Assembly (NCBI GenBank): GCA_021323315.1
Contig: JAJTCQ010000009.1
Coordinates: 1-64,000 of the forward strand
Source of the DNA: Gaiellaceae bacterium
Lineage (GTDB): Bacteria; Actinomycetota; Thermoleophilia; Gaiellales; Gaiellaceae
Length of the DNA: 64,000 nucleotides
Direction of reading: 5' to 3'
A model generated the notes under the pieces. That model was not told the DNA's origin. It worked only from the letters and a program-made list of their open reading frames with translations, and made no database searches. Each line of letters opens with the position of its first letter. Within the stretch, counting starts at the first letter, position 1. Positions 5,565-53,101 of the stretch are shown here, piece by piece. Both the position numbers and the translations under genes were made by a program.

Positions 5565-6572
5565 ATGGCATTGAGCTTCGGCGTCACCGTCCTCCCCGAC
5601 CCGCCATCCAGTCGCTTCCTCGAGCTGATCCGCCACGCCGAGGCGAACGGCTTCCAGTACGGCTGGACGTACGACTCGCACGTGCTCTGGCAGGAGTCGT
5701 TCCCACTCTTGACGATGGCGGTGCAGGCGACGACGTCGATGAAGTTCGGCCACTGCGTGACGAATCCCGGAACCCGCGAGCCAACGGTGCTCGCGAGCGC
5801 CTACGCGACGCTGCACGACATCTCCGACGGTCGCATGGTCATGGGGATCGGGCGTGGCGACTCGGCCGTCCGCTACATCGGCGACAAGCCGGTGCGCGTC
5901 GCCGAATTCGAGCGACGCTGCGCGATGGTGAAGGAGTTCATGAACGGCCGCGAGGTCGAGTGGAACGAGAAGCCGCTCAAGCTCGCATGGGTGCGGCCCG
6001 AGCTTCCCGAGATCCCGATGTGGATCGCCGGCTACGGCCCGAAGGCGCTCGCGGTGGCAGGCCGGGTCGGAGACGGCGTGATCATCCAGCTCGCCGACCC
6101 CGTGATCGTCGAGTGGATCATGGACACGGCGCGCAAGGCTGCCGAAGAGGCCGGTCGCGATCCCTCGGAGCTGAAGTGCATCGTCTGTGCGCCGAGCCAC
6201 ATCACCGACGACCTCGCCGACGCGAGAGACCAGGTGCGCTGGTTCCCGGCGATGGTCTCGAACCACGTCATGGACCTCATCGAGCGCTACGGCTACGAGT
6301 CGGAGATCCCGCACGAGCTCACGGAGTACGTCCGCGTGCGCAAGTTCTACGACTACGACGAGCACTCCCGCGTGGGCGCGAAGCACGGCGAGTTCGTCAC
6401 CGACGAGATCTGCGACCGCTTCTGCGTCCTCGGCAACGCCGAGCAGGCGACCGCGAAGCTGAAGGAGCTGGAGGCGGTCGGCGTCGACCAGTTCAACATC
6501 TACCTCATGACCCACGGACAGGAGGAGGATCTCGCCGCCTACGGCAAGGACATCATTCCGGCCTTTCGCTAG
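5565..6572 (+). CDS. F420-dependent LLM-class oxidoreductase (TIGR03842/CPS_4043-like)
   Basis: 335 residues with the bacterial-luciferase-like TIM-barrel fold. Recognisable segments are GVTVLPDPPSSRFLELIRHAE, the strand-2 motif YGWTYDSHVLW, NPGTREPTVLASAYATL, SDGRMVMGIGRGDS and MWIAGYGPKALAVAGRVGDG. These match LLM flavin/F420 enzymes of the methylene-H4MPT-reductase type. From memory, the closest named family is TIGR03842, often found near hydantoinase and pyrimidine genes, which fits this cluster. Cofactor choice (F420 or FMN) cannot be proven from sequence. Its TAG stop overlaps the convergent arginase stop within the palindrome CTAG. Confidence 0.8.
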   Translation: MALSFGVTVLPDPPSSRFLELIRHAEANGFQYGWTYDSHVLWQESFPLLTMAVQATTSMKFGHCVTNPGTREPTVLASAYATLHDISDGRMVMGIGRGDSAVRYIGDKPVRVAEFERRCAMVKEFMNGREVEWNEKPLKLAWVRPELPEIPMWIAGYGPKALAVAGRVGDGVIIQLADPVIVEWIMDTARKAAEEAGRDPSELKCIVCAPSHITDDLADARDQVRWFPAMVSNHVMDLIERYGYESEIPHELTEYVRVRKFYDYDEHSRVGAKHGEFVTDEICDRFCVLGNAEQATAKLKELEAVGVDQFNIYLMTHGQEEDLAAYGKDIIPAFR

Positions 6573-7471
6573 ATGATCGTGGCGCCGAGGGCGCTTGCGA
6601 CGAGCTCGACGGCGGTCGTCGCCGTCGTGTTCTCGCGGTCGAGGATCGGGTTCACCTCGACGACCTCGAGCGAGCCTGCCGCACCCGATTCGGCAACGAG
6701 CTCGAGCGCGAGGTGGGCCTCGCGGTAGGTCAGCCCGCCCCGCACCGGCGTCCCCACCCCCGGCGCGATCTCCGGATCGAGAACGTCCATGTCGAGCGAG
6801 ACGTGGACGAATCCCGCCCCCGAGATCCTGTCGAGTGACTCGCGCACGGCGCGCTCGATGCCGATGCGGTCGATCTCGCTCATCGTGAACACGCGCACGC
6901 CCGCATCGCGCAGAAGCCGCCGCTCGCCGTCGTCGAGCAGGCGCGTCCCGACGAGCGCGACCCGCGTCGAATCCACTGCCGGTAGCGACCACACGTCGCT
7001 CTCGAAACCCGGGCCCGCGAGTCCGAGCGCCGCGGCGAGGGCCATCCCGTGGACGTTTCCGGTCGGGCTCGTCTCCGGCGTGTTGATGTCGGAGTGGGCG
7101 TCCATCCAGAGCACGCCGCCCGGGCCGTGCACCGACGCGAGCCCGCCGAGCGTGCCCAGCGCGACCGAGTGGTCTCCGCCGAGAACGAGCGGCGTGGCCC
7201 CACGACTGGTCGCGTCGGCGACCCGCGCCGCGATCAGCTCGCAGGTGTCGTGGATCTCCGGGAGGAACCGCGCGCGCTCGTCACGGAGCGCCGTCGCCTC
7301 GGCGACCGCCGTCTCCACGTTTCCCTCGTCGCCGACCTCGTAGCCGAGTCCGACCAGCCGCTCCTCGAGCCCGGCGTAGCGGATCGCCGACGGCCCCATG
7401 TCGACCCCGCGTCGACCCTGCCCGAGGTCGAGCGTGGCGCCGATGATCGCGACCTCTCGCTGCACGTTCAC
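6569..7471 (-). CDS. rocF: Arginase
   Basis: 300 residues, normal arginase length. It hydrolyses L-arginine to ornithine and urea. Mn-ligand motifs are all present: GGDHSVALG, WMDAHSDINTPETSPTGN and SLDMDVLDPEIAPGVGTPV. The C-terminal EVNPILD...NTTATTAVEL is arginase-specific rather than agmatinase-like. The GTG start at 7471 is fixed by TAGGTT exactly 6 nt upstream. It is convergent with the oxidoreductase and divergent from tRNA-Phe. Confidence 0.9.
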   Translation of the reverse strand: MNVQREVAIIGATLDLGQGRRGVDMGPSAIRYAGLEERLVGLGYEVGDEGNVETAVAEATALRDERARFLPEIHDTCELIAARVADATSRGATPLVLGGDHSVALGTLGGLASVHGPGGVLWMDAHSDINTPETSPTGNVHGMALAAALGLAGPGFESDVWSLPAVDSTRVALVGTRLLDDGERRLLRDAGVRVFTMSEIDRIGIERAVRESLDRISGAGFVHVSLDMDVLDPEIAPGVGTPVRGGLTYREAHLALELVAESGAAGSLEVVEVNPILDRENTTATTAVELVASALGATII

Positions 7472-44091: not shown

Positions 44092-44813
44092 GCTTCTGCT
44101 CGCTCGAGGGGCGGACGGCGCTCGTCACCGGCGCGTCGCGCGGCATCGGGCGCTCGATTGCGACGGAGCTCTCCGCAGCGGGCGCGTCGGTCGTTCTCTC
44201 GTACCGGACCGGCGCGGAGGAGGCAGATGCCCTCGCCTCGGAGATCGGAGGCCGCGCGGTGCAGGCCGACGTGTCGGACCCGGCATCCGCGGCCGCGCTC
44301 GTCGTGGAGGCAGGCGACGTCGACATCCTTGTCAACAACGCAGGAGTGACGCGTGATGGATTGCTCGTGCGCATGTCCGACGACGACTGGAACACCGTCA
44401 TCAACACCAACCTCGCGTCGTGCTTCTACACCAGCCGGGCGGTGGCGCGCGGGATGATGCGCAAGCGCGCCGGGACGGTCGTGAACATCTCCTCGATCGT
44501 CGGCATCCACGGAAACTGGGGCCAGACGAACTACGCGGCCTCGAAGGCCGGGATCATCGGCTTCACGAAGTCCCTCGCCCGTGAGCTCGGGAGCCGGAAC
44601 GTTCGGGCAAACGTCGTCGTTCCCGGGTACGTGAAGACGCAGCTCACCGACGTGCTTCCCGAGGACGCAACGAACGCGATGCTGCTGAACACCCCGCTGG
44701 GCCGTCTCGGTGATCCCGAGGACGTCGCCGGCGCGGTGAGGTTCCTCTGCTCGGACGAGGCGTCCTTCATCACGGGCGCCGTATTGCTGGTCGACGGAGG
44801 GCTGGGGATGTAG
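44088..44813 (+). CDS. fabG: 3-oxoacyl-ACP reductase FabG
   Basis: 241 residues from GTG 44088 (GTGA overlap with fabD). Short-chain dehydrogenase: NADPH site ALVTGASRGIGRSIA, NNAGVTRDGLLVRM, catalytic Ser in VNISSIVG and the Tyr/Lys pair in TNYAASKAGIIGFTKSLA. The C-terminal VLLVDGGLGM is typical of FabG. It reduces 3-oxoacyl-ACP in each elongation cycle. Confidence 0.95.
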   Translation: MSFCSLEGRTALVTGASRGIGRSIATELSAAGASVVLSYRTGAEEADALASEIGGRAVQADVSDPASAAALVVEAGDVDILVNNAGVTRDGLLVRMSDDDWNTVINTNLASCFYTSRAVARGMMRKRAGTVVNISSIVGIHGNWGQTNYAASKAGIIGFTKSLARELGSRNVRANVVVPGYVKTQLTDVLPEDATNAMLLNTPLGRLGDPEDVAGAVRFLCSDEASFITGAVLLVDGGLGM

Positions 44814-46078
44814 TGGCCGGCGGGTCCGACAACGGCCGTCGCGTGGTCATCACCGGCGTCGGGATGGTGAGCCCGCTGGGGAACGATCCAGCGTCCTCGT
44901 GGGAGACCCTCGTCGCGGGCGAGTCGGGCGCGGGGCCGATCACGCACTTCGACACGTCCGACTACGACGTCCACTTCGCTTGCGAGCTGAAGGACTTCGA
45001 CCCCACGCACTGGATGGACCGCAAGAAGGCGCGACGTATGGATCGCTTCTCGCAGCTGGCGCTGTCGGCAGCGCGGATGGCCGAGGCCGACAGCGGCCTC
45101 GACATCGCCGCCGCGCCGGAGCGCGTGGGCGCGGCCGTGGCGACGGGGATCGGTGGCCTCTACGCCTTCGAGGACTGCTTCCAGAACCTGCTCGAGCGCG
45201 GGCCGGACCGGACGAGCCCCTTCGCGATCGTCCAGATCATCCCGAATATGGCCGCCGCCTGGGTCTCGATGGAGCTGGGAGCGCAGGGCCCGCTCGCCGC
45301 CGAGTGCACGGCGTGCGCCGCATCGAACATGGCGATCGGCGACGGCCTCGACGCAATCCGCCTCGGGCGCGCCGATGCGATGTTCTGCGGCGGTACCGAG
45401 GCGCCGATCACGCGCGTCGGCATCGCCGGGTTCACGGCGATGCGCGCGCTCTCCCGCCGGAACGACGAGCCGACGGCCGCATCCCGCCCGTTCGACTCCG
45501 GCAGGGACGGCTTCGTCATGGGCGAGGCGTCGGGGATGCTCGTGCTCGAGGAGCTCGAGCATGCGCGCTCGCGGGGCGCGAAGATCTATGCGGAAGTGCT
45601 CGGGTACGGCGTCTCGGCCGACGCCAGCCACGTTTCCGATCCCGATCCGACCGGGGCGAATCCCGCCCGGGCGATGCAGATGGCCTTCACCGACGCCGGC
45701 ATCGATCCCGAGGTCGTCGGGTACGTGAACGCGCACGGCACTTCTACGCCGTCCGGCGACGCGGCGGAAACGCGGGTGCTGAAGCTGGCGCTCGGCGAGG
45801 AGAAGGCCCACCGCACGCCGGTCTCGTCGACGAAGGGCGCGACCGGGCACTGCCTCGGCGCGGCCGGGGCGGTCGAGGCGATCTTCTGCACCTTCGCGCT
45901 CCAGCACGGCGTGCTGCCGCCGACGATCAACTACGAGGACCCCGATCCGGAGTGCGACCTCGACTACATCCCGAACGAGGCGCGCCGGCAGGACATCGAG
46001 GTTGCGGTCAACAACTCGTTCGGCTTCGGCGGTCACAACGCCTGCGTGGTCTTCCGGCGCTGGGACGAAGCCGCCTGA
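44813..46078 (+). CDS. fabF: 3-oxoacyl-ACP synthase II (FabF)
   Basis: 421 residues. It overlaps the fabG stop by 1 base (TAGTG). Catalytic residues: Cys in ECTACAASNMAI, His in VNAHGTSTPSGD, and His in KGATGHCLGAAGAVE. It condenses acyl-ACP with malonyl-ACP. Between fabG and fabF most operons of this type carry acpP; here there is no room for it. Confidence 0.95.
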   Translation: MAGGSDNGRRVVITGVGMVSPLGNDPASSWETLVAGESGAGPITHFDTSDYDVHFACELKDFDPTHWMDRKKARRMDRFSQLALSAARMAEADSGLDIAAAPERVGAAVATGIGGLYAFEDCFQNLLERGPDRTSPFAIVQIIPNMAAAWVSMELGAQGPLAAECTACAASNMAIGDGLDAIRLGRADAMFCGGTEAPITRVGIAGFTAMRALSRRNDEPTAASRPFDSGRDGFVMGEASGMLVLEELEHARSRGAKIYAEVLGYGVSADASHVSDPDPTGANPARAMQMAFTDAGIDPEVVGYVNAHGTSTPSGDAAETRVLKLALGEEKAHRTPVSSTKGATGHCLGAAGAVEAIFCTFALQHGVLPPTINYEDPDPECDLDYIPNEARRQDIEVAVNNSFGFGGHNACVVFRRWDEAA

Positions 46079-46082
46079 GCGG

Positions 46083-46559
46083 TCAGACCCGCCGCTCGAG
46101 CAGGAGCGTGTCCCGCCAGGAGCCGTGCAGCTGCGCGATGCGGTCGCGGCGCCCGACCAGGCGGAAGCCGACGCGCTCGTGCAGCGCGACGGTCGCCGCG
46201 TTCTCGGGGAAGACGTTCGTCTGGATCGTCCAGATCCCACCTTCGTCGGCGCTCGCGAGGAGCGCGTCCATCAGCTTGCGCCCGACGCCGCGTCCGCGCA
46301 TCGACCCCGCCACGTACACGGAGTGCTCCGCAACGCCTGCGTAGCACTCCCGCGAGGAGGTCGGCGAGAGTGCGGCCCAGCCGACGATCCGCCCGTCCTG
46401 GACCGCGACGAGGCGGTGATCTCGCAGGCGCGAGGCATCGAACTCCTCGTAGCGTGGCGCCGACGTCTCGAAGGTCGCGTTGCCGGTGGCAATCCCCTCC
46501 GCGTAGATCTCCTCTACGGCGGGCCAGTCGTCCCGCGTCATCGGCCGGATCTGGAACAC
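46083..46559 (-). CDS. GNAT acetyltransferase (phosphinothricin-type)
   Basis: 158 residues from GTG 46559. The PAT-like N-terminus IRPMTRDDWPAVEEIYAEGI and YEEFDASRLRDHRLVA lead to the acetyl-CoA loop YVAGSMRGRGVGRKLMDAL and the C-terminal VALHERVGFRLVGRRDRI. Relatives acetylate phosphinothricin or methionine sulfone/sulfoximine; the substrate here is unknown. It is divergent from the HAD gene, and the two -10 boxes overlap. Confidence 0.85.
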   Translation of the reverse strand: MFQIRPMTRDDWPAVEEIYAEGIATGNATFETSAPRYEEFDASRLRDHRLVAVQDGRIVGWAALSPTSSRECYAGVAEHSVYVAGSMRGRGVGRKLMDALLASADEGGIWTIQTNVFPENAATVALHERVGFRLVGRRDRIAQLHGSWRDTLLLERRV

Positions 46560-46566
46560 GCCGGGC

Positions 46567-46576
46567 AGATTAGGCT
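46567..46576. promoter_or_regulatory. Overlapping divergent -10 boxes for GNAT and HAD genes
   Basis: Minus-strand TAATCT (46572-46567, 7 nt before the GTG) and plus-strand TAGGCT (46571-46576, 6 nt before the ATG) share two bases. RNA polymerase could occupy only one direction at a time. Confidence 0.6.
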
Positions 46577-46582
46577 GCCGGG

Positions 46583-47242
46583 ATGGAGCGATGGGCGACG
46601 TTCGACTGCTACGGGACGCTTGTCGACTGGAACGCCGGGATCCACCGCGAGCTCGAGAAGCTGTTCGGCGTCGAGTTGGCGGACAGCCTGCTCGTCCGTT
46701 ATCACGAGCTCGAGCCACAGATCCAGGCCGACAACCCGGGCGTGTCGTATCGCGAAGTCCTCACGATCGCGCTCGAGACGCTCGCGGCCGAGGCCGGGCT
46801 CACGCTGCCGGAGGGCGAGACGAGCGCGCTGGCCAGATCGCTCCCCGAGTGGCCGGTGTTCGACGACGTGCACGACGGCTTGGCGGAGGCACGCGCAGGG
46901 GGCTGGCGGATCGGGATCCTGTCGAACACGGACCGGGATCTGATCGACGCGTCGATGGACGCGATCGGCGTGCATTTCGATCTTTCCATCGTCGCAAGCG
47001 AGATCGGCTCCTACAAGCCGTCCCAGCGCCATTGGGAGGTCTTCCGGCAACGGGTGGGTGGCGATGTGGGCCACGTTCACGTCGCACAGAGCCTCTTCCA
47101 CGACATCGCGCCGGCAAGCGAGCTCGGGATCCCGTCGATCTGGATCAACCGCCTTGAGGAGCCGGACGACGGGCGCGCATCGCGGACTCTCGTCTCCCTG
47201 GCCAGGCTGGCGAGCACTCTGGACGAGCTCGTCCCCAAATGA
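46583..47242 (+). CDS. HAD-family hydrolase (2-haloacid dehalogenase type II-like)
   Basis: 219 residues. Nucleophile motif TFDCYGTLVDWNAG, motif II ILSNTD, Lys in SYKPSQRHWE and the acidic motif LFHDIAPASELG. This combination matches the haloacid dehalogenase/epoxide hydrolase-like subgroup. Substrate unknown; many members are phosphatases. It starts a three-gene operon with a tandem GNAT and a ureohydrolase (ATGA overlap). Confidence 0.85.
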   Translation: MERWATFDCYGTLVDWNAGIHRELEKLFGVELADSLLVRYHELEPQIQADNPGVSYREVLTIALETLAAEAGLTLPEGETSALARSLPEWPVFDDVHDGLAEARAGGWRIGILSNTDRDLIDASMDAIGVHFDLSIVASEIGSYKPSQRHWEVFRQRVGGDVGHVHVAQSLFHDIAPASELGIPSIWINRLEEPDDGRASRTLVSLARLASTLDELVPK

Positions 47243-48096
47243 CGCCCTCACTCCGAGTCCCGACCGACGCGGATGTCGAGGACGTCGCGAGGATCATGAG
47301 CGAGGGCTGGCCGGAGGCCGTGGATGCCGGCCAGGTGCGGCAAGCGTGGGCGTCTCCTGGCTTCGACCGCGAGCGTGATGCGCGCATCGCCCCAGGCGCG
47401 TACGTGCACGTGGAAGCCCTCGACCGAGACCGAGTCTGGATCAACCTGCGCGGCCGCCCGTCGACCGCGCTCGTCGACTGGGCGGAGGGCCGGGCACGCG
47501 AGCGGGGCGGCCGGATCCTGTGCGGCTCCTGGGCTGCGAACGAGAGCGTGCTGGAGGAACTGCGCCGCCGCGGGTTCAGGCAGATCCGCCATTCGTTCCG
47601 CATGTCGATCTCTCTGGAGGACGAGGTGCCGGTGCCCGTGGTGCCGGCCGGAGTGCGGCTCCGGACGTTCGAGGATGGGGATGAGCGCTCCTTCTACGAC
47701 GCGCAGCTCGAGGCCTTCGCCGATACGTGGGAGCCGATCGACCACCCGTACGACGAATGGGCGCACTGGTTATTGGACACGCCGTCCTTCGACCCCGAGC
47801 TGTGGTTTCTGGCCGAGGTGGGTGGTGCGGTGGCAGGGTTCGCCATCTGCAGGGTGCATCCCGGGAATTCGGACCTCGGGTGGATCCAGATCCTCGGGGT
47901 TCGCCGGCCGTGGCGAGGAAAGGGGATCGGGCGCGCGCTTCTCCTCAACGCCTTCCGCGCGCTTCGCGCACGAGGCCTCCGTCGCGCCGGGCTGGGCGTC
48001 GACGCCGAGAATCCGACCGGAGCGACGAGCCTCTACGAGTCGGTCGGTATGCGTGTCGTGGACCGCTTCGAACTCTACGAGACGGAGCACACGTGA
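47239..48096 (+). CDS. Tandem GNAT acetyltransferase (MshD-like architecture)
   Basis: 285 residues with two GNAT folds. The N-terminal copy is degenerate. The C-terminal copy keeps the acetyl-CoA loop GVRRPWRGKGIGRALLLNAF and ENPTGATSLYESVGMRVV. Two-domain layout and length recall mycothiol synthase MshD, but the equivalence is not established. It overlaps both operon neighbours (ATGA, GTGA). Confidence 0.8.
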   Translation: MTPSLRVPTDADVEDVARIMSEGWPEAVDAGQVRQAWASPGFDRERDARIAPGAYVHVEALDRDRVWINLRGRPSTALVDWAEGRARERGGRILCGSWAANESVLEELRRRGFRQIRHSFRMSISLEDEVPVPVVPAGVRLRTFEDGDERSFYDAQLEAFADTWEPIDHPYDEWAHWLLDTPSFDPELWFLAEVGGAVAGFAICRVHPGNSDLGWIQILGVRRPWRGKGIGRALLLNAFRALRARGLRRAGLGVDAENPTGATSLYESVGMRVVDRFELYETEHT

Positions 48097-48860
48097 GCGT
48101 GCTGCGGGCGCGCTGCCCGAACTGCAGGACGTTCACCGCGGTGGCGATCGGTGACGGCTACGAGTGCCATAGCTGCGGAGGCACCTTCCCGGCGGGGCTC
48201 GTGCGCGTTCCGGCCGCGTGGGGCGCCGGCGGCGAGGCGATGGCAGACGGCGCGCGCGTTCCGCTTCCGTATCCCGAGGTCGCTGTGATCGATGGCGGCA
48301 CGCTCGAAGAGCAGACCACGGCGATCGTGGAGGCACTACCGCAGCGGCCGATAGTCCTCGGCGGGTGCTGTTGCGCCCACGTCGGAGGTGCGACGGGTGT
48401 CGCGCCGCGCGTCGATCGGCTCGGCATCGTCTGGATCGACGCCCACGGTGATCTCAACACGCCGGAGACGTCCCCGTCGGGGAATCTCTGGGGCATGCCG
48501 TTCCGGATGCTGCTCGACTCGGGTGTCGCGGCGGCAGAGGACGCCGCGCTCGTCGGCGCTCGGAACCTCGACCCGCCGGAGGCGGAGTTCGTCGCGCGTC
48601 ACGGGATCGACGATTCGCTCGATCGCGCGCTGGCCGGCGTCGACGCGGTCTACGTCGCACTCGACCTCGACGTTCTCGACCCGGCCGATGTCGACGTCCT
48701 CATCTCGGAGCCCGACGGGCCGTCACCGGACGAGATCGCGGCGCTGCTGCGGGACGTGAGGCAGCGGACGCGGATTGCAGGAATGGGCGTCACAGGCTTC
48801 CTCGCCACGGACAGGAACACGGCCCTCGCGGTGCGGATGCTCGCCGCGGCCGGCTTCTGA
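48093..48860 (+). CDS. Zinc-ribbon/ureohydrolase (arginase-agmatinase family) fusion
   Basis: 255 residues from GTG 48093 (GTGA overlap). The N-terminus has a zinc ribbon: Cys8-x2-Cys11 and Cys25-x2-Cys28. The ureohydrolase core has WIDAHGDLNTPETSPSGN and VALDLDVLDPADVD, nearly identical in layout to the arginase at 6.6-7.5 kb. The first metal-ligand loop, normally GGDHS, is GGCCCAHVGG, so a Cys-rich loop replaces Asp-His. It may have different metal use or no classical hydrolase activity. Substrate unknown. Confidence 0.78.
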   Translation: MSVLRARCPNCRTFTAVAIGDGYECHSCGGTFPAGLVRVPAAWGAGGEAMADGARVPLPYPEVAVIDGGTLEEQTTAIVEALPQRPIVLGGCCCAHVGGATGVAPRVDRLGIVWIDAHGDLNTPETSPSGNLWGMPFRMLLDSGVAAAEDAALVGARNLDPPEAEFVARHGIDDSLDRALAGVDAVYVALDLDVLDPADVDVLISEPDGPSPDEIAALLRDVRQRTRIAGMGVTGFLATDRNTALAVRMLAAAGF

Positions 48861-48880: not shown

Positions 48881-49732
48881 ATGTCTTCCGGGCAGCGTCG
48901 CGTCGACGTCGAGGTCGAGAGCAAGCGCCCGGACGAAACGCCCGACGGCAAAGGCCACCCGAACACCTGCCCCGGCTGCGGGTCGCACTACCGCGACGAC
49001 GAGTTGAAGCAGGCGCTGAGAGTCTGTCCGCAGTGCGGTCATCACTTCCGCGTGGGTGCGCGCGAGCGGATCGAGCAGCTCGTGGACACGGGATCGTTCG
49101 TCGAGAACGACGCCGACCTCCGGTCGGCGGATCCGCTGCAGTTCTTCGACCTGCGCCCGTACGCGGAGCGGCTGGTCGAGGCCGAGATGGAGACGGGTCT
49201 CGGCGACGCGATCGTGTGCGGCGCCGGGGACATCGAAGGGAGGACGTGCGACCTCGCGATCATGGACTTCGGGTTCATGGGCGGCTCGATGGGAAGCGTC
49301 GTCGGGGAGAAGTTCGTGCGCTCGTGCGAGCGGGCCGCGGAGTCGGGCGGGACACTCGTCTCGGTGTCGGCTTCCGGTGGAGCGCGGATGCAGGAGGGCA
49401 TCCTCGCGCTCATGCAGCTGCCGAAGACGATCTGCGCGATCGAAGACCTGCACGAGTCTCGTGGCTCGATGATCTCCGTGCTGACCCACCCGACGACCGG
49501 CGGGGTGCTCGCGAGCTTCGCGAGCCTCGGCGACGTCGTCCTTGCCGAGCCGGGAGCGTTGATGTCCTTCGCAGGCCCGCGCGTGGTGTCGCAGACGACG
49601 CGCGAGAAGCTGCCGGACGACTTCGGGCGCGCCGAGTCGAACTACCGCTACGGGCACCTCGACGCCATCGTCCCCCGCTCCGAGCTGCGCGCCACCGTCG
49701 CTCAGCTCCTCGGGTTGTTCGAGCACCCCTGA
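48881..49732 (+). CDS. accD: Acetyl-CoA carboxylase carboxyltransferase beta subunit
   Basis: 283 residues. The zinc ribbon is CPGCGSHYRDDELKQ... with the second pair CPQCGHH. The crotonase-like core carries MDFGFMGGSMGSVVGEKF and SASGGARMQEGILALMQ, then HPTTGGVLASFA and FAGPRVV. With AccA it transfers carboxyl from biotin to acetyl-CoA, making malonyl-CoA for the fab operon 3 kb upstream. Confidence 0.95.
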   Translation: MSSGQRRVDVEVESKRPDETPDGKGHPNTCPGCGSHYRDDELKQALRVCPQCGHHFRVGARERIEQLVDTGSFVENDADLRSADPLQFFDLRPYAERLVEAEMETGLGDAIVCGAGDIEGRTCDLAIMDFGFMGGSMGSVVGEKFVRSCERAAESGGTLVSVSASGGARMQEGILALMQLPKTICAIEDLHESRGSMISVLTHPTTGGVLASFASLGDVVLAEPGALMSFAGPRVVSQTTREKLPDDFGRAESNYRYGHLDAIVPRSELRATVAQLLGLFEHP

Positions 49733-50673
49733 TGCCCAACGAGGCGGAGATGCGGCTGCGCGAGCGGCTCAGTAAGCTCGGCGGCATGAAGCTCCTGCGC
49801 GGCACGAAGCTCTCGGGCGAGCTCGCACGCCTCCAGGACCAGCTCGACCAGTTGCGCGCGGATCCGACCGCGGAGGAGATTTGGCAATCGGTCGAGCTCG
49901 CGCGCCACGTCGACCGGCCCTACACCCTGGACTACGTCGAGCGGATCTTCGACGACTTCTTCGAGCTCCACGGCGATCGTGGACGTGCCGACGACTCCGC
50001 CCTCGTGACTGGTCTGGGGAAGCTCGACGGCAGGACCTTCGTGCTCATCGGGCACCAGAAGGGGCGCGATATCAAGGAGCGGGCGACGCGCAACTTCGGA
50101 ATGGCATATCCCGAGGGCTACCGCAAGGCGATGCGCGCGATGTCCCTCGCAGGCCGGCATGGCTTTCCGGTCGTGACCATGGTGGACACGCCAGGCGCCT
50201 ACCCCGGGGTCGCCGCGGAGCAGCACGGCCAGGGTGGCGCGATCGCGCGCTCGCAGGCCGCGATGGTGCGACTCCCGGTGCCCACGGTCGCGTGCGTGAT
50301 CGGCGAAGGCGGGTCGGGAGGGGCGGTCGCGATTGCCGTCGCAGACCGCGTCCTCATGCAGGAGAATGCGATCTACTCGGTGATCTCGCCCGAGGGGTGC
50401 GCGGCGATCCTGTGGCGGGATGCGGGCCAGGCGCGGAAGGCCGCCGCCGCGTTCAAGCCCGACGCCGCGCATTGCCTCGAACTCGGCGTCGTGGACGGGA
50501 TCGTCGCCGAGCCCGAGGGCGGAGCCCATACGGACGTCGATGCTGCCGCTCAGCTCCTCGAGCAAGGAATTCTCGCTGCATTCGAGGAGATCGACGACCT
50601 CGACGACGACGACCGGCGGCGTCTGCGCCGCGAGAAGTACCGCATGATGGGCGTTCTTGCGTCGACGGCGTAG
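49732..50673 (+). CDS. accA: Acetyl-CoA carboxylase carboxyltransferase alpha subunit
   Basis: 313 residues from ATG 49732 (TGATG overlap with accD). Conserved stretches: DYVERIFDDFFELHGDR, GHQKGRDIKERATRNFGMA, PEGYRKAMRAM, MVDTPGAYPGVAAEQHGQ and GEGGSGGAVAIAVADRVLM. It forms the carboxyltransferase with AccD. Separate accD and accA are unusual for classical actinobacteria, which mostly use fused AccD-type chains, and fit a deep-branching lineage. Confidence 0.95.
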   Translation: MPNEAEMRLRERLSKLGGMKLLRGTKLSGELARLQDQLDQLRADPTAEEIWQSVELARHVDRPYTLDYVERIFDDFFELHGDRGRADDSALVTGLGKLDGRTFVLIGHQKGRDIKERATRNFGMAYPEGYRKAMRAMSLAGRHGFPVVTMVDTPGAYPGVAAEQHGQGGAIARSQAAMVRLPVPTVACVIGEGGSGGAVAIAVADRVLMQENAIYSVISPEGCAAILWRDAGQARKAAAAFKPDAAHCLELGVVDGIVAEPEGGAHTDVDAAAQLLEQGILAAFEEIDDLDDDDRRRLRREKYRMMGVLASTA

Positions 50674-50800: not shown

Positions 50801-53101
50801 GTGAGCCTCGACGAGTACCGACAAAAGCGTCGCCGCGGCAAGACGCCGGAGCCTTTCGGCGAGCGCGCCGCCTCGGCGGAGCGGCCGCGCTTCGTCATCC
50901 AGCGCCACGCCGCGCGGCGGCTCCACTACGACTTTCGGCTCGAGCGTAACGGCGCGCTCGCGAGCTGGGCTGTGCCGAAGGGCGTCCCGCTCCGCAGCGG
51001 GGAGAGGCACCTCGCCGTGCACGTCGAGGACCATCCGCTCGAGTACGGCGATTTCGAGGGGACGATCCCTGCGGGCGAGTACGGTGCAGGCACTGTCGAG
51101 ATCTGGGATCGCGGCACGTACGACCTGCTGGAGGAGAAGAAGAACGGCGGCCTGACCGTCCGGCTCGACGGCGAGCGGCTCGACGGCGTCTGGACGCTCG
51201 TACCGGCCAGGCTCGACGGCGATCCGAAGAACTGGCTCCTCCTGCGGAAGGACGCGGGCGAGGGAAGCGCGGCGCGGTACCGGCCCATGCTCGCGGTCAG
51301 TGCCGACACGCTGCCGAGGGGCGAGGGCTGGGTGTTCGAGCCGAAGTGGGACGGGTTTCGCGCGATCGTGACCGTCTCGGGCGGCGACGTGTCGTTCACG
51401 AGCCGGAACGACAACGACCTGACCCGGCGGTTCGGGGACGTCGCTCGCGCAGCCGCGCTCGCGATCCGCTCCTCCGACGCGGTGCTCGACGGAGAGATCT
51501 GTTCGCTCGACGAGGCGGGCCGTTCGCGCTTCTCGCTCCTGCAGGAGGGCGGCGGCACGAGCGTTCTGGTCCTCTTCGACGCGCTCGAGGTCGAGTCCTC
51601 ACCGCTCGTCGACCTCCCGCTCGCGGAGCGGCGTCAACGACTCGAGGAGCTGGTCGACCAGCAGGCGGGCGTGCTCGTGTCCCCGCAGTTCGACGACGGC
51701 CAGGCGCTGCTCGTCGCCGCGCGCGAGCAGGAGCTCGAGGGTGTCGTGGCCAAGCTGAGGGACTCGCCGTACAGACCGGGCCGCCGCTCGCCCGACTGGC
51801 AGAAGCTGAAGCTCCGCCTCACGCAGGAGGTCGTCATCGCCGGCTACACGCGCGGACAGGGACGCCGCGGCGGCGGGTTCGGCGCGCTCGTCGCCGGGGT
51901 CCACGATGCGGGTGTCCTGCGCTGGGCAGGGAACATCGGCACGGGCTTCTCCGATCGCGAGATCGAGCGCCTGCTCGGTCTCATGCGCCCCCTCGTACGT
52001 CCCGACTCGCCCTTCGCCGAGGTGCCGAAGATGCCACGCGTCCGGAAGACCGACGTCACGTGGGTCGAGCCCTCGCTCGTGGCCGAGGTCGAGTTCGCCG
52101 AGTGGACGCACGAAGGACGGCTGCGGGCGCCGTCGTATCTCCGGCTTCGTGAGGACAAGGCGGCGCCGGAGGTGAGGCGCGAGCGCGTGCCGGTCGAGCC
52201 GGTCGTGAAGCGCGGCCGCAAGGAGCTGCGCTTCTCCAACCTCGACAAGCCCTTCTGGCCGGAGCTCGGGATCACGAAGGGCGACCTCATCGCCTACTAC
52301 CGCGACGTGGCAGAGGTGCTCGTCCCGCACCTGCGCGGGCGGCCGTTCACGATGAAGCGCTACCCCGACGGCTGGCAGGGCAAGAACTTCTTCCAGAAGA
52401 ACGCACCGTCGCACATGCCCGGGTGGATCGAGCGGACGTCGCAGCCGGCGTCGACTCGGGAGGGCGAGAGGAAGCTCATCGACTACGCGATCGTCGACGA
52501 CGACCTAGCGCTCATGTGGATGGCCAACATGGGGTGCATCGACCTGCACACGTGGGCGTCGCGCGTCGACAAGGCCGACCGCCCCGACTGGGTCATGTTC
52601 GACCTCGACCCGTCGGAGGGATCGGGGTTCGAAGAGGTGGTCGAGGTCGCGCTCCTGGTGAAGCAGACGCTCGACCTGCTCGAGCTCGAGAGCCATCCGA
52701 AGACCTCGGGCTCACGGGGAATTCACGTGCTCGTCCCGATTGCGCGGCGCCACTCGTTCGAAGAGGTACGCGACTTCGCCGCGATCATCGCCGGCGCGCT
52801 CGCGCGCGCACATCCGAAGCTCGTGACCACGGAGTGGGCGAGGAAGAAGCGCCACGGAGTCCTCGTGGACGCCAACCAGAACCGGCAGGGCGCGACGAAC
52901 GCGAGCGTCTACTCGGTGAGGCCGCGCGCGGGGGCGCCGGTGTCGACGCCGCTCCGCTGGGACGAGGTGCAGTCGGGGCTCGATCCCGCTGGCTTCACGA
53001 TGGAGACAGTCCTCGACCGCGTGGCCGAGCACGGGGATCTGTACGCCGCCGTGCTCGGAGGTAAGCAGTCGCTGAAGGCCGCGCTGAAGTCGCTTCGCTA
53101 G
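50801..53101 (+). CDS. ligD: NHEJ DNA ligase D (phosphoesterase-ligase-polymerase order)
   Basis: 766 residues with three modules. The 3'-phosphoesterase (about 1-160) has RFVIQRHAARRLHYDFRLE, HVEDHPLEYGDFEG and GEYGAGTVEIWDRG. The ATP-dependent ligase (about 165-470) has catalytic Lys182 in FEPKWDGFRA and later EGVVAKLRDSPYRPGRRS. The primase-like polymerase (about 480-766) has WVMFDLDPSEG and KTSGSRGIHVLVPI. PE-LIG-POL order resembles Pseudomonas rather than mycobacterial LigD (POL-PE-LIG). No Ku gene is in the window. GTG start, no ribosome site. Confidence 0.93.
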   Translation: MSLDEYRQKRRRGKTPEPFGERAASAERPRFVIQRHAARRLHYDFRLERNGALASWAVPKGVPLRSGERHLAVHVEDHPLEYGDFEGTIPAGEYGAGTVEIWDRGTYDLLEEKKNGGLTVRLDGERLDGVWTLVPARLDGDPKNWLLLRKDAGEGSAARYRPMLAVSADTLPRGEGWVFEPKWDGFRAIVTVSGGDVSFTSRNDNDLTRRFGDVARAAALAIRSSDAVLDGEICSLDEAGRSRFSLLQEGGGTSVLVLFDALEVESSPLVDLPLAERRQRLEELVDQQAGVLVSPQFDDGQALLVAAREQELEGVVAKLRDSPYRPGRRSPDWQKLKLRLTQEVVIAGYTRGQGRRGGGFGALVAGVHDAGVLRWAGNIGTGFSDREIERLLGLMRPLVRPDSPFAEVPKMPRVRKTDVTWVEPSLVAEVEFAEWTHEGRLRAPSYLRLREDKAAPEVRRERVPVEPVVKRGRKELRFSNLDKPFWPELGITKGDLIAYYRDVAEVLVPHLRGRPFTMKRYPDGWQGKNFFQKNAPSHMPGWIERTSQPASTREGERKLIDYAIVDDDLALMWMANMGCIDLHTWASRVDKADRPDWVMFDLDPSEGSGFEEVVEVALLVKQTLDLLELESHPKTSGSRGIHVLVPIARRHSFEEVRDFAAIIAGALARAHPKLVTTEWARKKRHGVLVDANQNRQGATNASVYSVRPRAGAPVSTPLRWDEVQSGLDPAGFTMETVLDRVAEHGDLYAAVLGGKQSLKAALKSLR

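Follow-up and report, generated by a model that had tools for sequence, protein, structure and literature searches.

A zinc-ribbon-fused, cysteine-type ureohydrolase-like protein encoded beside accD in Gaiellaceae

The window (the whole stretch of DNA that was analyzed, 64,000 nucleotides from a Gaiellaceae bacterium) encodes a protein in which a Cys-rich ribbon precedes an arginase-like core with an altered metal-binding loop. Can such a protein still be a metalloenzyme, and if so, of which kind? An initial annotation had placed it at 48093-48500 and suggested that it could be a new enzyme type, a thiol-regulated ureohydrolase, or a zinc protein. The start of that range is right, but the range covers only the first half of the gene, which ends at 48860. 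The gene, its motifs, and the arginase used for comparison are as follows.

48093..48860, + strand: ribbon-fused Cys-type ureohydrolase-like gene (GTG start, 255 aa; open reading frame and PF00491 match)
48114..48176, + strand: zinc-ribbon motif C8-P-N-C11-x13-C25-H-S-C28, from sequence (CPNC is residues 8-11, CHSC is residues 25-28)
48360..48380, + strand: GGCCCAH loop, residues 90-96 (C93 at the arginase metal-A His position)
48438..48452, + strand: DAHGD metal motif, residues 116-120 (D116, H118, and D120)
48489..48491, + strand: W133 codon, at the arginase catalytic His141 position in alignments
48660..48671, + strand: LDLD metal motif, residues 190-193 (D191 and D193)
6569..7471, - strand: canonical arginase with a normal GGDHS loop (TIGR01229, 292.5 bits vs a cut-off of 227.6)

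Residues 1-32 form the ribbon part and residues 33-255 form the arginase-type core. In the ortholog comparison, 33 loci have their start codon, either ATG or GTG, at this position. PF00491 matches the protein with an E value of 7.8e-25 and 88.3 bits, above its gathering score of 22. The AlphaFold2 model (mean pLDDT of 93) was aligned to arginase 1cev by VIA-align with a Z of 29.6 and an rmsd of 1.8 Å over 225 residues. The protein is a member of the ureohydrolase (arginase) superfamily, with the arginase α/β/α fold in its predicted model. It falls below the cut-offs of the equivalogs for arginase (TIGR01229, 67 bits vs 227.6), agmatinase (TIGR01230, 30.7 bits vs 174.3), and formimidoylglutamase (TIGR01227, 44.5 bits vs 229.15). 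The gene at 6569-7471 had been taken for a true arginase with the normal loop, and its score and GGDHS bear this out.

The stretch from PIVLGG to DAHGD aligns without gaps to the arginase of Bacillus caldovelox, so that C92, C93, and C94 fall on D98, H99, and S100. His99 is the metal-A ligand and corresponds to His101 in the rat enzyme. Thus, Cys93 occupies the sixth ligand position, and the usual set of six ligands with His at metal A does not apply to this protein. The other five ligands (D116, H118, D120, D191, and D193) are intact, and DAHGD and LDLD are retained as initially annotated. In the alignments, His141 is replaced by Trp133 and Glu277 by Gly235; the catalytic and guanidinium-binding pair is gone. 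Since both residues are missing, arginine is an unlikely substrate and another proton shuttle would be needed. It is possible that W133 obstructs an arginase-type active site. The residues N130, T135, S137, D183, and E186 of rat arginase hold the amino-acid end of arginine. Their counterparts, N122, S127, S129, D160, and E163, are invariant or nearly so in the family, which makes an amino-acid-like substrate the likelier kind. In summary of the comparison with arginase RocF (TIGR01229; 1cev), the protein shares the fold, DAHGD, LDxD, and the residues that bind the substrate's amino-acid end. It differs in the three replaced positions and in its N-terminal part, where the core stretch ahead of the loop is much shorter behind the ribbon.

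When 101 related genomes were searched and 84,980 species genomes were scanned, orthologs were found at 53-75% identity. There are 33 distinct ribbon-bearing orthologs, all from Gaiellaceae-like genomes; the Gaiellaceae are a family of soil bacteria. One is from Candidatus Gaiellasilicea maunaloa (L036; NCBI taxonomy Gaiellaceae, Gaiellales, Thermoleophilia). Together with the PF00491 match and the gap-free alignment, these orthologs confirm the fusion of a ribbon to a ureohydrolase with a Cys-rich metal loop, and they rule out that the GGCCCAH loop with its ribbon is unique to this contig. The four ribbon Cys, C93, H96, W133, D116, H118, D120, D191, and D193 are invariant in 33/33. The flanking Cys are more tolerant: C92 is Asp in one member (L026) and C94 is Ser in another (L031). 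In pairwise comparisons, the whole gene has a dN/dS of 0.13-0.30 and the ribbon one of 0.01-0.16; both the ribbon and the core are therefore under purifying selection. Two orthologs from a sister family of the same order (L112:6288-6986 in G061; L039/L113 in G070) possess the CCC loop and the Trp and have no ribbon. Across the phylum, 396 genomes were searched, and matches from outside the ribbon family never extended into the ribbon. A search for GGCCxAH as a DNA pattern in 249 genomes of the class gave matches at about the level of the backwards control and was discarded.

The ribbon has CxxC-x13-CxxC spacing, as in a two-knuckle ribbon, and a few orthologs are one residue longer. Of the named Pfam ribbon families, none reached its cut-off with the window ribbon, and the best was Zn_ribbon_8 (22.6 vs 34.4 bits). 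An origin as a copy of the neighboring AccD ribbon is unsupported (hhalign probability of 24%). When the tree was constrained to keep the ribbon proteins together, it was not rejected and scored slightly above the free tree (AU p of 0.64). This is consistent with a single N-terminal addition of the ribbon within the Gaiellaceae lineage, with loss in the sister family as an alternative. The ribbon lies outside of the catalytic core and is missing from the sister-family orthologs, so it probably serves in structure or docking. In one genome (G014, L138:2761-2958, - strand), a stand-alone frame, ALRARCPGCRTLTGV...CHSC, is found before accD. It possesses all four ribbon Cys and the arginase core is gone. 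This frame could be a remnant, or it could encode a small, free zinc protein.

The Cys at metal A places the family in a much wider group. A tree was built from 84 sequences, the sampling of which leans to VWIDAHGD-like stretches, with few agmatinases and with DcsB not among the rows. One branch (support of 97-99) separates its 51 proteins that have the metal-A Cys from the His-type arginases. They come from Bathyarchaeota, Gemmatimonadota, Proteobacteria, Bacillota, Chloroflexota, and Actinomycetota. Within this clan, the window family is grouped with GGDCG proteins, apart from the AGDCC group and from rows with an SGYLGGM-like motif that resembles the one in DcsB. The nearest grouping includes GGDC-type proteins of other Actinomycetota (L132, L133, L134, and L137). 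These also have Cys at metal A, but they possess neither the ribbon, the CCC loop, nor the Trp, and the L132 protein is fused to a GNAT domain instead. To our knowledge, DcsB is the only member of the Cys-type clan that has been studied. The N-omega-hydroxy-L-arginine amidinohydrolase of 6lug is DcsB of D-cycloserine synthesis, and the original study reportedly noted that a Cys serves as metal-A ligand and that the catalytic His is missing. DcsB (6lug, 7euk, 9ixe) is likewise an arginase relative; in a phmmer alignment of 6lug, its Cys86 is at the metal-A position, as is C93. Both have no His at position 141, where DcsB has Gly and the window family has its invariant Trp. Unlike the window protein, DcsB has no zinc ribbon, and its loop is NNTCSVS rather than GGCCCAH.

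The gene also has a fixed place in the genome. Its neighbors in the window are as follows.

44813..46078, + strand: fabF-like ketoacyl synthase, a conserved upstream neighbor (named from sequence, without a profile search)
46583..47242, + strand: HAD hydrolase resembling haloacid dehalogenase type II, a conserved neighbor (TIGR01428, 116 bits, below the cut-off of 125.4)
47239..48096, + strand: two-part GNAT acetyltransferase, a frequent neighbor that weakly resembles mycothiol synthase
48881..49732, + strand: accD-like carboxyltransferase gene, directly downstream
49729..50673, + strand: accA-like gene after accD (named from sequence; start inferred)

The HAD, GNAT, and ureohydrolase genes overlap by 4 bases at each junction, and the GTG start of the ureohydrolase falls within the GNAT stop. 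These genes form a tight operon; an operon had already been annotated. In 33/33 ribbon loci, accD lies 3' of the ribbon gene on the same strand, 23-253 bases away, and HAD, GNAT, or fabF is upstream in nearly all of them. At the sister-family loci, only the HAD-ureohydrolase pair is left, downstream of dprA and without acc neighbors; in L112, the ureohydrolase start overlaps the end of the adjacent HAD gene. The ureohydrolase gene is dispensable: four genomes (G006, G041, G028, and G060) have HAD and accD but no ureohydrolase gene between them. HAD was considered as an obligate partner and rejected. It is present in 38/39 genomes of the bacterial family with the ureohydrolase and also in 9/22 without it, so the link is loose; these counts ignore kinship and include several incomplete genomes. 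A large ligD-like gene (50801-53101, + strand, in the window) follows accA in most ribbon loci, and the fab/acc/ligD order itself is therefore conserved. A second GNAT gene (46083-46718, - strand), the longest form of which overlaps the HAD start, is kept in several orthologous loci.

Taken together, it is fairly likely that the window protein is an intact metalloenzyme of the Cys-type ureohydrolase branch, a two-metal hydrolase to which a ribbon was added in the Gaiellaceae lineage. The conservation of five of the six ligands and of Cys93, the purifying selection, and the fixed place before accD support this; the dispensability of the gene, the possible obstruction by W133, and a predicted model that holds no metal are points against it. 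The family is best read as a ribbon-fused subfamily, specific to this lineage, within a broad Cys-type branch, and as probably an active binuclear metallohydrolase. C93, as a thiolate, would hold the two-metal center together with D116, H118, D120, D191, and D193. This center would activate water and cleave a C-N bond in a group resembling an amidine or an amide, with a proton shuttle that must differ from that of arginase, as in DcsB. Many branches of the ureohydrolase superfamily have no known function, and an enzyme can stay active with another residue in place of His141 (comammox guanidinase, PMC11410670; PMC11271267). The metformin hydrolase subunit MetCa is active with Asn at this position. 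MetCa resembles the window protein in that it has no usual catalytic His at 141. It differs in that it has six normal ligands and works with nickel in a heterohexamer with MetCb (PMC11271267). The most likely function is that of a metal-dependent hydrolase with a substrate other than arginine.

The main rival to a hydrolase is a catalytically silent sensor or scaffold with an arginase fold, the ribbon of which would dock on a partner such as the acetyl-CoA carboxylase encoded alongside. The loss of His141 and Glu277 would fit, as would the accD gene directly 3' in every ribbon locus, and ribbons commonly serve as protein-contact modules. There is also a precedent for a degenerate partner in MetCb of metformin hydrolase; however, MetCb-type subunits have lost three to five metal ligands (PMC11271267), whereas the window protein retains five, with an invariant Cys as the sixth. 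The sister-family orthologs, with neither a ribbon nor acc neighbors, also argue against a scaffold, which is considered unlikely.

A DcsB-like hydrolase of N-omega-hydroxy-L-arginine, a hydroxyguanidine, is a more doubtful candidate. It could explain the metal-A Cys and the loss of His141 that are shared with DcsB, as well as the conserved amino-acid-end residues. However, D-cycloserine-type neighbors are absent, position 141 is Trp rather than Gly, and the family groups with the GGDCG proteins and not with the SGYLGGM-like rows (in a tree from which DcsB itself was left out).

The thiol-regulated ureohydrolase of the initial annotation would use C92, C93, and C94 as a redox switch that toggles the metal center. 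Three neighboring Cys are found in most members, and the PDB title of 9ixe, an N-omega-hydroxy-L-arginine hydrolase, mentions an oxidized Cys86 and bound copper. The Asp and Ser replacements at C92 and C94 weaken the idea, since a disulfide among these Cys would be dispensable, and C93 and H96 never change; a switch is thus regarded as improbable. Just as improbable is a new fatty-acid-linked class, in which a Cys-ligated two-metal hydrolase docked by its ribbon on acetyl-CoA carboxylase or the ketoacyl synthase would clear or make a nitrogenous metabolite with HAD and GNAT. It is hardly credible that the protein is an ordinary arginase or agmatinase whose loop change is harmless: the fold and motifs are present, but the protein scores far below both equivalog cut-offs, the His101, His141, and Glu277 positions are all replaced, and a true arginase is also present in the host.

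The family is distinct from true arginase, as the proposal of a new enzyme type had implied, but its metal-A Cys is not new. As judged from the alignments and the tree, the Cys-for-His swap is already known from DcsB, is common to the clan, and places the family in a known, little-studied branch. As far as was found, the new elements are the zinc-ribbon fusion, the family signature GGCCxxH/NxWGMP, and the constant position within a fatty-acid operon. Descriptions of the arginase superfamily usually give it an unvarying metal center of six ligands, and one large clan from many phyla with Cys in place of a His ligand contrasts with them. The ribbon family is compact and conserved and has a fixed genomic address. 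It is thus a good entry to the effects of Cys ligation on metal choice and substrate range, and to the question of why such an enzyme sits in a fatty-acid operon.

A protein of another genome (G433, L132:5518-7194, - strand) has a GGDCG Cys-type domain with His at 141 and Glu at 277, fused to GNAT (Rv0428c_C / Acetyltransf_1). A second, separate Cys-type group with a GNC-type loop and Asp at 141 is present in the same bacterial family as the window protein (L117, L118, and L119, in G049, G029, and G055). Nocardioides luteus possesses a triple-Cys loop, SGCCCVS (L091:5812-6603, + strand), in a distant part of the clan. Because this loop sits elsewhere in the clan, the triple Cys probably arose more than once.
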